Source: an uncultured Clostridia bacterium
Lineage (GTDB): Bacteria > Bacillota > Clostridia > TANB77 > CAG-508
Assembly (NCBI GenBank): GCA_947628085.1
Contig: CANQYM010000002.1
Location: 1 to 64,000 of the forward strand
DNA: 64,000 nt
Direction of reading: 5' to 3'
A model generated the notes under the pieces. That model worked only from the letters and a program-made list of their open reading frames with translations, ran no database searches and was not told the origin of the DNA. The position numbers were made by a program, and so were the translations under genes. This document shows, piece by piece, positions 40,150 to 51,002 of the stretch. The number at the start of each line of letters is the position of its first letter. Position 1 is the first letter of the stretch.

Positions 40150-40296
40150 GTAAAATTGATATATTTTTGTAATTAAAATGTAATGTTTTTGTAGCTATTG
40201 AAAAAATTTAGATATATTTTGTAAAAAAATTATTTTTTTTCTTAAATAGTTACATTTTTATATATTATTTGAGTTTTTTTATATTTTAAACATTAT

Positions 40297-46623: not shown

Positions 46624-46653
46624 AAAAGGATAGCTTAAAAAAGCTACCCCTTT
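46624..46653. terminator. Terminator of the cohesin-protein gene
   Basis: AAAGG(A)TAGCTT pairs with AAGCTACC (46624-46636 with 46641-46653, one bulge), followed by A/T runs, about 15 nt past the stop. Confidence 0.7.
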
Positions 46654-46668
46654 ATTTATTTTTAACTT

Positions 46669-47415
46669 TTATAATTTACTATTTACTTTTTCAAATTTAA
46701 TATAGAATACTATTGATAATATGATAAGTGCACCTACAATATATATTAATGTATCTTCAACACCTGTGTAAGGTACATCACTTTCTGTAGTATTTTCTTC
46801 ATTTACAAATGAAGGTGTTACCATATTTACTTTTGGAGCAACATTTTCTTCTGTATTTGTGTTTGTATTTGTATCAGCAATTAATACAAGAGGATTTGAA
46901 TTTTCAGCATTAGTATTTGCTTCGTTTGTAACTTCTCCTCCTACTGTAATTGATGTTGAAATATCAGAAGCTGGAATAGTTGTTTCGCTGTTGCTTGCTG
47001 TAATTTCTGTGAAATTAATTTTTCCAACTGTTCCTGGTTCTACATCAGCTTTTGTTTTAAATGTTACTTGAAAAACTGTTTCTTCTGTTTTTACGAAAGT
47101 TGTTTTTGTTAATTTTATTGCTTTTGTTTCAGCATTATATGAATGACTCCATGTATTCATACCTTCAATACTGCTATCGTTTATTTCTTCAAATACATCT
47201 TCATCATAGCTTAATGTACCAGTTAATTGGTTTATTCCGTTATCCCCAACATTTAAATTAGATACTTTAACTTGTATTGTAACTTCTGCTGAAGGATCAA
47301 CATTTTGGCTACTAGATGTCATTGTTGCTGTAAAGCTAAGAGCATTAACAACTGTTGTATAAACGAGCACCATCAAAACAGCTACAATTGTAACTTTTAA
47401 AATTTTCTTTTTCAT
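46669..47415 (-). CDS. Cell-surface cohesin-domain protein with PYTG sorting signal
   Basis: 248 residues: a signal peptide (1-25), a cohesin-like beta domain (about 27-155; VDPSAEVTIQVKVSNL, INQLTGTLSYDEDVFE, KADVEPGTVGKINFTEI), an Asn/Thr/Glu linker, then VPYTGVE, a hydrophobic helix and a basic tail. The C-terminus looks like a sortase signal with PYTG in place of LPXTG. A cohesin binds a dockerin, and the gene immediately upstream encodes a dockerin-tailed protease, so this is a likely surface docking site. Promoter at 47438-47466. Confidence 0.75.
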   Translation of the reverse strand: MKKKILKVTIVAVLMVLVYTTVVNALSFTATMTSSSQNVDPSAEVTIQVKVSNLNVGDNGINQLTGTLSYDEDVFEEINDSSIEGMNTWSHSYNAETKAIKLTKTTFVKTEETVFQVTFKTKADVEPGTVGKINFTEITASNSETTIPASDISTSITVGGEVTNEANTNAENSNPLVLIADTNTNTNTEENVAPKVNMVTPSFVNEENTTESDVPYTGVEDTLIYIVGALIILSIVFYIKFEKVNSKL

Positions 47416-47437
47416 ATGCTATTTCTCCTTTTATCTA

Positions 47438-47466
47438 AGTATAACCGTTATATTTGCAAAAATCAA
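47438..47466 (-). promoter_or_regulatory. SigA-type promoter of the cohesin-protein gene
   Basis: Read leftward: -35 TTGATT (47461-47466), 17-nt spacer, -10 TATACT (47438-47443). The neighbouring protease promoter has the same -35 hexamer. Confidence 0.7.
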
Positions 47467-47530
47467 GATGTTTTACATACTTTTTTATTACATTTAATTA
47501 ACAGTTTTGTTATATAAAGTTCATAATAAG

Positions 47531-49585
47531 CTATATGGAATTATATAAAACCATCATTTGAGCCACATCTGTTATTGTTATTTTTCCATCTAAGTTTAAA
47601 TCTAAAGCCTTTAATTCATAACTATCTAATGTATTATTTGCACCGATATAATATGTTTTTAGTCTAGAAACATCTAGTATAGAAATCTTTCCATCTGAAT
47701 TGTTGTCCCCTCTTACAATTAAAACATATTCCTCATTATTAGACAATTTTATTATCATTCCTGTTTTTATTACTTCGTTTTCGTTAGATATTTCATTTCC
47801 ATTTTCATCATATACTTTCATTACTAAATTTGAATTCAAATTATTTAATAATTGTGTTTTTGTAGTATTGTAATTAATATTCATAATATATTGATTATTT
47901 ATTGTATAAATTGATGAAGTTAAATTATTATTTTCTTTTTGTTCTATTGTAAATGCTTTTATACACACATCTGTATCAGACATATTTACTCCATCAACTG
48001 TTATATCTGCTAAATTTGACCACTCTGTTCCGTCTACAGATATATAACTTTGTCTATTAGATGTTATTCCATCATAAATTGTGCCATCTACATTAGCTTC
48101 TACTTGGAAGGCAAAAGTATTTCCTGATAAAGTTGTTTGTTTTATAACAATTGCAAATTCTTTACTGCTTAATTTTGTAGGTGTAATATAAATTCTATGA
48201 TATCCTGGATTTAGTGTTGAATTTAATTTTCCAACTAATGTTAAATTTTTTGAATCTAAACTACTACCATTAGGATTTACATATATTTCTACATTAGCAT
48301 ATTCACATAAGCTAACACCAACACTATTCATTATTTCAGTTTCTTTATTATTTCTACTAAAAACATTTGCAAAATATCCAGTTTTTCCACCATCTGATAT
48401 TAATTTTAAAATTCCACCAAAATCATCATATTGATATATATTATCATAATCTACTGATGATGTTGAGCATACTCCATAAAGTTCACTCTCTATAAAGAAG
48501 TCTTCATAAGAAATATAGATATATCCATTATCAAATGAATTTTCTCCATATGTGTTTAATACTATATATGCTCCATCTGAAGAAGGTTTTTTTCCTTCTC
48601 TAAAATTATTTCTTGAATAATTATCATCCCAACCTACTATTGTTATTCCATGGTCTCTTGTTATATTTTCATCATTACAATTATAATTTGTTGATGAAAA
48701 TATTGAAGATGGATTGTTATAGTAATTTGCTTTTGATCCAGCAGTAAATGCAGCTATTGCACCATTGTTTATTAAGTGTTCTTTTATAGTTTTCCTAATT
48801 GCTTTAACTTCTTCATTTGTGTAAACTTTTCCTGAATCGTCTTTATAAGTAACAGATATAGTATTTCCTTGGCTATCTTTAGTATAGCTTTTATTCAAAG
48901 TAGGTAAAATTTCATAATCTGTAACAATTGTATCTACTTTTTTGTCTAGTTCTCTTAAATATATTTCGTTTGAATTATCTTCAAATGGCATATCTTTTTC
49001 TAAAACAGCCCCTTGTCCATTTGTAAGATATGCAAGTCCCATTATAGGAAGACCTCCGTCTCCTGTTTTTCTATTTAATCCTTTAGGATTTGTTCCATCT
49101 AAAAAGTTTCTTACAGATGAATAATCCATATGTCTTTCAGAAAAATCTTTTAATTCAGTTACACCTGATTTTAATGCAATATTGGTTTCCAATGATTTAA
49201 TAGTAGAAAATGCCCAACATTCATTTGTACTTCCTTGATGCTCTACTCTTATGTTTAATTTATTACTTAAAGTAAATCTAGCATCAGAACTACTTGCAGA
49301 CACGGTATTAAAATTTGTTTCATTACTTTTTAGTAAAGAACCAATAAAATTTGGTGTACTTCTATCCTCATATTCTTCTAAAATTTCTTCTGGTATTTCT
49401 ATAGAATATGGTTGTGGCATAATAGTTTTTTCTTTTTCTTCTTCTGATAATTGTTTCCAATTTTCAAATTCTTCTGTTGTATCTAATCTTACTTCCAAAG
49501 CAAATGCTTTACTTGTAAAAATTATCATTAAAAGAAAAATAATTAAGAAAAGAATTTCCTTCTTTTTACTTTTAATACTTTTCAT
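47531..49585 (-). CDS. Secreted papain-like (C1) protease with C-terminal dockerin
   Basis: About 684 residues: a signal peptide (AFAL junction), a propeptide-like region, and a C1 peptidase domain with Cys123 (NECWAFS), His in DHGITIVGWDD and Asn in VLNTYGEN. A beta-sandwich 'lectin-like' region of C1 gut proteases follows, then a type I dockerin with two calcium loops (DNNSDGKISILD and DLNLDGKITITD). The TATAAT at 49621 places the transcript start near 49614. This excludes the GTG at 49615 and supports the ATG at 49585 (Shine-Dalgarno GAAAGAGAG). The dockerin likely docks onto the neighbouring cohesin. Confidence 0.82.
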   Translation of the reverse strand: MKSIKSKKKEILFLIIFLLMIIFTSKAFALEVRLDTTEEFENWKQLSEEEKEKTIMPQPYSIEIPEEILEEYEDRSTPNFIGSLLKSNETNFNTVSASSSDARFTLSNKLNIRVEHQGSTNECWAFSTIKSLETNIALKSGVTELKDFSERHMDYSSVRNFLDGTNPKGLNRKTGDGGLPIMGLAYLTNGQGAVLEKDMPFEDNSNEIYLRELDKKVDTIVTDYEILPTLNKSYTKDSQGNTISVTYKDDSGKVYTNEEVKAIRKTIKEHLINNGAIAAFTAGSKANYYNNPSSIFSSTNYNCNDENITRDHGITIVGWDDNYSRNNFREGKKPSSDGAYIVLNTYGENSFDNGYIYISYEDFFIESELYGVCSTSSVDYDNIYQYDDFGGILKLISDGGKTGYFANVFSRNNKETEIMNSVGVSLCEYANVEIYVNPNGSSLDSKNLTLVGKLNSTLNPGYHRIYITPTKLSSKEFAIVIKQTTLSGNTFAFQVEANVDGTIYDGITSNRQSYISVDGTEWSNLADITVDGVNMSDTDVCIKAFTIEQKENNNLTSSIYTINNQYIMNINYNTTKTQLLNNLNSNLVMKVYDENGNEISNENEVIKTGMIIKLSNNEEYVLIVRGDNNSDGKISILDVSRLKTYYIGANNTLDSYELKALDLNLDGKITITDVAQMMVLYNSI

Positions 49586-49620: not shown

Positions 49621-49648
49621 ATTATACCACTTTTTAAAATAAAATCAA
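49621..49648 (-). promoter_or_regulatory. SigA-type promoter of the dockerin protease gene
   Basis: Read leftward: -35 TTGATT (49643-49648), 16-nt spacer ending GTGG (extended -10), -10 TATAAT (49621-49626). Confidence 0.7.
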
Positions 49649-49868
49649 CTGTACTCCTCTATTCTAAAGGGTTTGATGGCTTTTTTGCATTAAAAACACT
49701 TACGGATATTATATTTTAAAGAGTTAGTGCCCTTATATTAAGTTTTCATAACATTTGAAAAATCCCAATTGTTACTAAAATGTAACCGTTTCTTAACGAA
49801 CTTGATATTTATATTTACTTTTTTTGATGTATAATATATTTGTGATACTAAAGATAGAAGGGGTTATT

Positions 49869-51002
49869 ATGAGCATAAGTTCTACTCTAAAAAATGAGGG
49901 TATAACAATTATTGGAAAATTAAATACTGATGAAGTAAATAAGATTGCATCAAATATATCTAAAAAAATAGCCGATGCTTTTCCAGAACATCATATTGAT
50001 GAGCAAGATTTATTTAATTCTATCTGTAATTTAGACATGTACATTGCTGACATGCCAAATGATAGTGCTATGGCTAAATACTTTTATAAAAACAACTCTA
50101 TCTATTTTAGTAAAGATATGGATTTAGATGATTTAAATACTCTTGCTATACATGAATGTTTACATTTTATTCAAGAAGTAAAAAATAAAAATGGAAAATT
50201 ATTGCGTTTAGGTCTTTATGATATGCAAGGATTAAAAAATAGTGGTATGGCATTAAATGAAGCTGCTGTTCAACATATGGCTTCAATTGCAACTAATTCA
50301 TCTAAAGATACTGTAAAATATTACAATATGGATCTTTCTACAGAAAGTCCAGATTTTTATCCTATACAAACTGCTTTGCTTAATGAAATGATGTATTTTA
50401 CTGGCACTTATGCCCTATATCATAGTACCCTTTATAGTGATGATATATTTAAAAACACGTTTATTGCTAAAACAAGTAAAAAAATATATGAACAAATTGA
50501 AACCAATTTTGATTTAATTTGTCAGTATGAATCTTTATTATCAAATGAAACTTATAATTTATCTGTTTCATCTGAAAATTATAAAAGTGTAAATAAAATT
50601 AGAAACATAAATGAACGAATTGAAAATTTAAAAAGAATTATTTTTGAAAAAACATTAGAAACTCAGAACATAATATTAGTTAATTGCTTTAGTAATGAAT
50701 TATCTTATGTTCGTTCTTTAGAAGATGTTGATGAATTTAAAGAAAAGCTACATAATTTTAAAAATGTCTTAATAGATACAAACAATTATAATTTCTTTAA
50801 TGACTTTTCAAAACATATTTTAGGCTTATTAGAAGAAAAAAGAGAATATATTTTAAAATATGGCAATATTTTATCTTTAGATCATGTTTCTAAAGAACTT
50901 GCAAATGTTAATAAACACACATATGGATATCAATTCTTTAAAAAGTTATTTAGTAAATTAAAACTATTAATTGAAGAAGCAGTAAGACAAAAAGAATTTT
51001 AA
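49869..51002 (+). CDS. Putative zincin metalloprotease, unknown family
   Basis: 377 residues from the start chosen here. An HECLHF motif (HExxH) in LAIHECLHFIQEV and a downstream NEAAVQH motif could supply two His and one Glu ligand, as in gluzincins. The C-terminal half is helical with coiled-coil-like stretches. No signal peptide or membrane span, so it is cytosolic. A longer frame starts at 49824, but a TATAAT box lies at 49830-49835. GAAGGGG precedes the ATG at 49869, which I prefer. Monocistronic; family not recognised. Confidence 0.65.
   Translation: MSISSTLKNEGITIIGKLNTDEVNKIASNISKKIADAFPEHHIDEQDLFNSICNLDMYIADMPNDSAMAKYFYKNNSIYFSKDMDLDDLNTLAIHECLHFIQEVKNKNGKLLRLGLYDMQGLKNSGMALNEAAVQHMASIATNSSKDTVKYYNMDLSTESPDFYPIQTALLNEMMYFTGTYALYHSTLYSDDIFKNTFIAKTSKKIYEQIETNFDLICQYESLLSNETYNLSVSSENYKSVNKIRNINERIENLKRIIFEKTLETQNIILVNCFSNELSYVRSLEDVDEFKEKLHNFKNVLIDTNNYNFFNDFSKHILGLLEEKREYILKYGNILSLDHVSKELANVNKHTYGYQFFKKLFSKLKLLIEEAVRQKEF

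Follow-up and report, generated by a model that had tools for sequence, protein, structure and literature searches.

Several described systems resemble parts of the locus reported here. OlpA and OlpC of Clostridium thermocellum are attached at the S-layer, and Cwp84 of Clostridioides difficile, a protease that processes the surface-layer precursor, is attached by cell-wall-binding repeats. In Ruminococcus flavefaciens, dockerin-bearing peptidases and single-cohesin LPXTG anchors are each already known (PMC2930009). Here we describe a Cwp84-like protease that ends in a dockerin and whose gene directly precedes that of a small cohesin protein with a sorting-type tail. At a probability of about 0.8, we read the two as a split, non-covalent surface anchor, in which the X-dockerin of the protease would be held by the neighbouring wall cohesin.

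The window, the whole stretch of 64,000 nucleotides that was analysed, belongs to a 1.81-Mb draft genome; the relatives are uncultured Clostridia from gut samples of rabbit, sheep, mouse and others. In the list of open reading frames (ORFs), the protease gene, a 115-bp gap and the cohesin-anchor gene form a tandem on the minus strand, beside a divergent gene. The features are as follows:

46669..47415, minus strand: cohesin anchor gene, 248 aa, with signal peptide, cohesin domain, low-complexity linker and VPYTG sorting-type tail plus transmembrane stretch
about 46918-47343, minus strand: cohesin domain within the 248-aa anchor gene
47531..49585, minus strand: Cwp84-like secreted papain-type protease, 684 aa, ATG at 49585, carrying a Lectin_like domain, an X-like module and a type I dockerin
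47534..47727, minus strand: type I dockerin domain of the protease, loops DNNSDGKISILD and DLNLDGKITITD; PF00404 match, paired recognition positions
47728..47935, minus strand: X-like module directly N-terminal to the dockerin, common to most dockerin proteins of the genus
49869..50999, plus strand: divergent HECLH-motif gene, 377 aa, without clear family or evident signal peptide

One flank of the locus holds ftsZ and ftsA (read from their translations), murA and topB, and the other an alanine-racemase-like ORF (likewise read from its translation). The protease and cohesin genes sit in a division/wall cluster, a setting pointing to an envelope role.

The protease matched Peptidase_C1 (E = 2.6e-17), Lectin_like (6.8e-20) and Dockerin_1 (2.8e-9) in Pfam, and its nearest PDB relatives were the Cwp84 structures 4ci7 and 4d59 (about 6e-26). 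The catalytic residues Q117, C123, H312 and N344 are invariant across 17 orthologs, placing the enzyme in papain family C1 as a Cwp84-like member. Dockerin scores ranged from 37.5 to 43.4 bits against the PF00404 cut-off of 22.9, with two calcium loops. The secreted papain-like protease and its terminal two-loop type I dockerin, both named in the original prediction, are thus borne out. Residues about 550-680 also match unrelated large dockerin ORFs in the genus; because the ~70-residue segment before the dockerin is common to most dockerin proteins of the genus, we regard the C-terminus (residues about 551-684) as a dyad of an X-module-like segment and a dockerin. The protease has no wall sorting signal of its own.

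A Pfam domain scan of the window cohesin protein returned no cohesin match; it scores 20.0 bits against PF00963, under the cut-off of 24.1, which is a limit set for detection and not a biological property, and several orthologs score above the cut-off. The fold model of an 86%-identical ortholog reached a pLDDT of 95-98 over the domain and, in a fold search, aligned with the cohesin 2vo8 at Z 16.6 (rmsd 2.0 over 128 residues). The best 34 fold matches were all cohesins (Z 11.0-16.6), identifying the domain as a cohesin fold, and the sole PDB sequence match of the cohesin profile was 3ul4 (E = 0.006). At the C-terminus, VPYTG is followed by a transmembrane stretch and a basic end. The motif departs from canonical LPXTG at position 1, and the Gram_pos_anchor match is under its cut-off; [VIM]PxTG is kept in 35 of 35 orthologs, and the window genome encodes nine sortases. 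An LPXTG-like motif, transmembrane stretch and basic tail together mark the protein as a probable sortase substrate. The wall-anchored protein with a cohesin-like domain that had been predicted is therefore upheld by fold and conserved tail, with a weak match at the sequence level. At another locus (L053, 4093-5769), the gene of an LPKTG-tailed cohesin protein is directly followed by a sortase gene, possibly a dedicated sortase-substrate pair.

About 30 species of the genus share the protease and cohesin pair. The cohesin protein was matched in 35 of 36 genus genomes in a first search, and about 32 of 53 genomes gave a strong orthologous match to the protease. Wherever the protease is present among the genus loci that were fetched, the cohesin gene lies directly downstream. 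About ten species retain the cohesin and the divergent gene without the protease, and in a few others (loci L121 and L142, for example) the protease looks broken and the cohesin whole. Protease copies in three contigs (G030:C26, G067:C23 and G058:C117) have stop codons or a missing C-terminus, next to an intact cohesin gene. The divergent HECLH gene adjoins the cohesin gene even in species without the protease, and this constant adjacency suggests a possible functional link between the two.

We then compared the anchors of Cwp84-like proteases from 79 related loci. Thirty-two of these proteases end in a dockerin and 25 carry a sorting signal ([LIMF]Px[TA]G, transmembrane stretch and basic tail); none of the 32 has a sorting signal, and none of the 25 has a dockerin. 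A cohesin gene is next downstream of the dockerin protease in 27 of the 32 loci and next upstream in two (L138 and L139). These mutually exclusive anchors are the strongest argument that the dockerin serves as the anchor and the adjacent cohesin as its receptor. In the dockerin/cohesin pair, the sorting signal has in effect shifted from the protease to the cohesin, and such a swap inside one protease family offers a clean evolutionary comparison.

Because about ten species keep the cohesin without the protease gene, the protease is probably not the only client of the cohesin. The main clients of the cohesin could even be other dockerin proteins, for example giant NPCBM/F5-8C adhesins without a cohesin gene alongside, with the protease as one guest. 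The protease-free genomes examined do hold a dockerin ORF of ~1500-1900 aa without an adjacent cohesin, the X-dockerins of those large ORFs share 35-41% identity with the protease X-dockerin, and the two that were scanned proved to be NPCBM/F5-8C proteins. However, the protease, where present in the fetched genus loci, is immediately upstream of the cohesin, and the window genome showed no NPCBM/F5-8C adhesin of this kind; we hold a cohesin shared in this way to be possible, at somewhat less than even odds.

The arrangement extends well beyond the protease. Across 53 genus genomes, at least 57 of the 150 dockerin matches listed have a separate same-strand cohesin gene directly downstream, with 125-567 bp between the paired domains. 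Among the same 150 matches listed, none has a cohesin gene upstream or on the opposite strand within 3 kb, and 29 have cohesin and dockerin on one protein. The window genome encodes at least five dockerin ORFs and at least six cohesin ORFs (a profile search gave five cohesin matches, on five ORFs), with three adjacent pairs whose clients are the protease, a leucine-rich-repeat (LRR) protein and a transglutaminase-like protein. With two further adjacent pairs in the same genome, the original description of the system as minimal does not hold. The LRR dockerin protein and its cohesin gene occupy L049 (6655-12002); at L052 (4822-9391), the transglutaminase-like protein has a cohesin and dockerin of its own in addition to the neighbouring cohesin gene. 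The dockerins left unpaired in this genome are on ORFs of 4534 and 596 aa, and the larger (at most 4534 aa; G000:C4, about 107268 downwards; L050, 3-7268) has, close to the N-terminus, a cohesin followed by a dockerin.

Dockerin proteins sampled in the genus include proteases, LRR, transglutaminase-like and SH3/Big_2 proteins, and NPCBM/F5-8C giants. Giant secreted proteins of 1500-3700 aa with NPCBM (mostly together with F5/8C) and an X-dockerin occur at L175, L180, L183, L189, L193 and L194, most of them without a neighbouring cohesin gene. At L132 (194-7554), a row of four genes encodes a dockerin protein, a Coh-X-Doc adaptor (289 aa), a protease with X-Doc and an LPKTG-anchored cohesin, which looks like a short chain-type assembly. 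In the scanned dockerin ORFs of the window genome and ten from relatives, no glycoside hydrolase catalytic domain exceeded its Pfam cut-off, and the combination of a multi-cohesin scaffoldin bearing a CBM with dockerin glycoside hydrolases was not found in the window genome. A cellulosome was rejected because the sampled dockerin proteins have no glycoside hydrolase catalytic domain. The best reading is that each client, whether protease, LRR or transglutaminase-like protein, has roughly one socket of its own.

Loop positions 10 and 11 are the recognition positions of type I dockerins. Across 29 orthologs, with the other loop positions as control, the two dockerin repeats matched at position 10 at a rate of 0.83 within a protein versus 0.53 between proteins, and at position 11 at 0.55 versus 0.27 (p = 0.0002 for each, ignoring shared ancestry). 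Most other loop positions showed no match between the repeats, and positions 10 and 11 vary between species. Repeat-matched residues at these positions are the mark expected of a symmetric, dual-binding type I dockerin. The recognition residues also differ from one client type to another (protease, LRR and transglutaminase). Taken together, the conserved position and order of the genes, the mutual exclusion of the two anchors and the matched recognition residues support a single wall cohesin for the protease. To this extent, the comparative evidence fits the original prediction of one wall cohesin holding a protease instead of a glycosidase, but the pair does not stand alone in its genome, nor is its cohesin likely to be reserved for the protease. 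The original interpretation is therefore largely correct, though drawn too narrowly.

Dockerins and cohesins of different loci might instead pair with one another and build branched complexes, such that adjacency would not determine the choice of partner. Proteins that carry both domains (the 29 among the 150 dockerin matches listed) and the row at L132 with its Coh-X-Doc adaptor are compatible with such crossed or cascade assembly, and short chains are possible because related loci hold adaptors of this kind. Nevertheless, a separate neighbouring cohesin gene always lies downstream (57 versus 0 among the matches listed), and the recognition residues are not the same in the three kinds of dockerin (protease, LRR and transglutaminase). 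Both points favour pairing between neighbours, making crossed assembly unlikely.

Structure prediction of the complex was the check put forward with the original prediction. In two AlphaFold models of linked X-dockerin-linker-cohesin chains, read through with stop codons as residues, both domains were well folded but no confident docking was obtained (pTM 0.53 and 0.49). Because the linker includes the cohesin signal peptide and few rows are paired, this is a weak test that speaks neither for nor against binding. When the dockerin recognition residues were compared with cohesin positions for covariation, phylogeny probably dominated the outcome. A beta domain that is instead an adhesin or pilin of cohesin-like fold, binding no dockerin and incidental to its neighbourhood, would fit the weak Pfam match, the pilin folds likewise present in the fold-match list (Z about 11) and the lack of a confident complex, but is very improbable given that the best 34 fold matches are cohesins (Z 11.0-16.6) and that the conserved one-sided neighbourhood is unexpected by chance.

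Regulatory features of the locus were as follows:

47438..47466, minus strand: cohesin promoter TTGATT-17-TATACT, conserved between the two genes in most orthologous pairs
49621..49648, minus strand: protease promoter TTGATT-16-TATAAT, its -10 preceded by TG, from a sequence scan
46624..46653, minus strand: intrinsic terminator 3' of the cohesin gene, from a sequence scan
47487..47503, minus strand: WalR-type box TGTTAATTAAATGTAAT, ahead of the cohesin promoter, in 20/21 orthologous gaps
49770..49786, plus strand: WalR-type box in the interval that separates the protease from the divergent HExxH gene, in 24/29 upstream regions
40168-40184, plus strand: WalR-type box ahead of ftsA, the third in the window

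TTGATT-type promoters had been predicted at both genes, and both are present, the cohesin one conserved as listed; promoter-like sites overall are no commoner than in shuffles. No terminator was found between the protease and cohesin genes. What supports the WalR-type boxes is positional conservation: TGTWAH-N5-TGTWAH occurs in 20 of 21 orthologous protease-cohesin gaps, versus 0.1 expected from shuffles, and in 24 of 29 regions upstream of the divergent HExxH gene, versus 0.3 expected. A one-mismatch search of the window's own genome gave 36 boxes versus 35 in the reversed control, no excess. None of the other dockerin/cohesin loci of this genome has the box, which is therefore no mark of the whole docking system. 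The best-matching response regulator, encoded at G000:C2:118806-119522, is YycF/WalR-like: it matches YycF above all other NCBIfam models, at 272 bits versus a cut-off of 340. TGTWAH-N5-TGTWAH is the WalR consensus of Bacillus subtilis and has been used for C. difficile too, where WalR controls envelope genes, several Cwp surface proteins included (PMC9210968); the reference list of that paper includes work on ftsAZ regulation by the WalR system in B. subtilis. Together, the boxes and the division/wall setting lead us to infer an envelope role for the protease/cohesin locus.

On the split-anchor reading, the protease would be exported without a wall signal, its C-terminal X-dockerin would bind the cohesin domain of the neighbouring protein, and a sortase, or the transmembrane stretch of the cohesin protein, would fix the cohesin to wall or membrane. 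The cohesin-dockerin pair would then do the job of the sorting signal in related proteases. The two genes are probably co-transcribed, the second, conserved promoter may yield extra cohesin, and a WalR-type regulator of envelope genes would control the pair. The likely task of the protease is surface protein processing or turnover, as for Cwp84 in C. difficile. More broadly, we give about an even chance to the view that, in this gut lineage, cohesin-dockerin pairs generally stand in for C-terminal sorting signals as a modular replacement, with each large secreted protein receiving its own small wall socket from the next gene. On this view, the protease pair would belong to the WalR envelope programme inside the division cluster and would be unconnected with plant-fibre degradation. 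Cohesin-dockerin docking is mostly known for cellulose digestion, and the locus suggests that gut bacteria can also use it as a plug and socket to anchor proteases and adhesins. The docking pair is possibly part of envelope upkeep, and dockerin/cohesin pairs may supply new orthogonal binding parts.

In the literature searched, we found neither dedicated one-to-one neighbour pairs as a sorting-signal swap nor a WalR link of a cohesin-dockerin pair. The described systems share individual elements with this locus. In R. flavefaciens, ScaE, like the protein described here, is a sortase-anchored wall protein whose single cohesin tethers dockerin proteins, those of ScaB and CttA, and dockerin peptidases, transglutaminases and LRR proteins also occur in that species (PMC2930009); however, ScaE anchors a whole cellulosome via a scaffoldin, whereas here a small anchor gene lies directly downstream of one client and no cellulosome is seen. 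RflaF_05439 likewise has a cysteine-peptidase fold (a papain-like module) on an X-dockerin dyad, but it belongs to the NlpC/P60 superfamily and a cellulosome system, and its abstract mentions no dedicated neighbouring cohesin (PMC3573020). The closest folds found are the non-cellulosomal cohesins of Clostridium perfringens (GH33 and GH84C; 2vo8, 2jh2 and 2w1n; Z 15-17), which also use cohesin-dockerin docking outside cellulosomes, as modules of glycoside hydrolases instead of a separate wall protein paired with a protease. OlpA and OlpC (3ul4 and 4dh2) are likewise cell-surface proteins with one type I cohesin each, but their clients are cellulosomal. Finally, Cwp84 (4ci7 and 4d59) shares the protease plus lectin-like architecture and the retained catalytic residues, and the protease described here differs from it in that its attachment would be via a dockerin.
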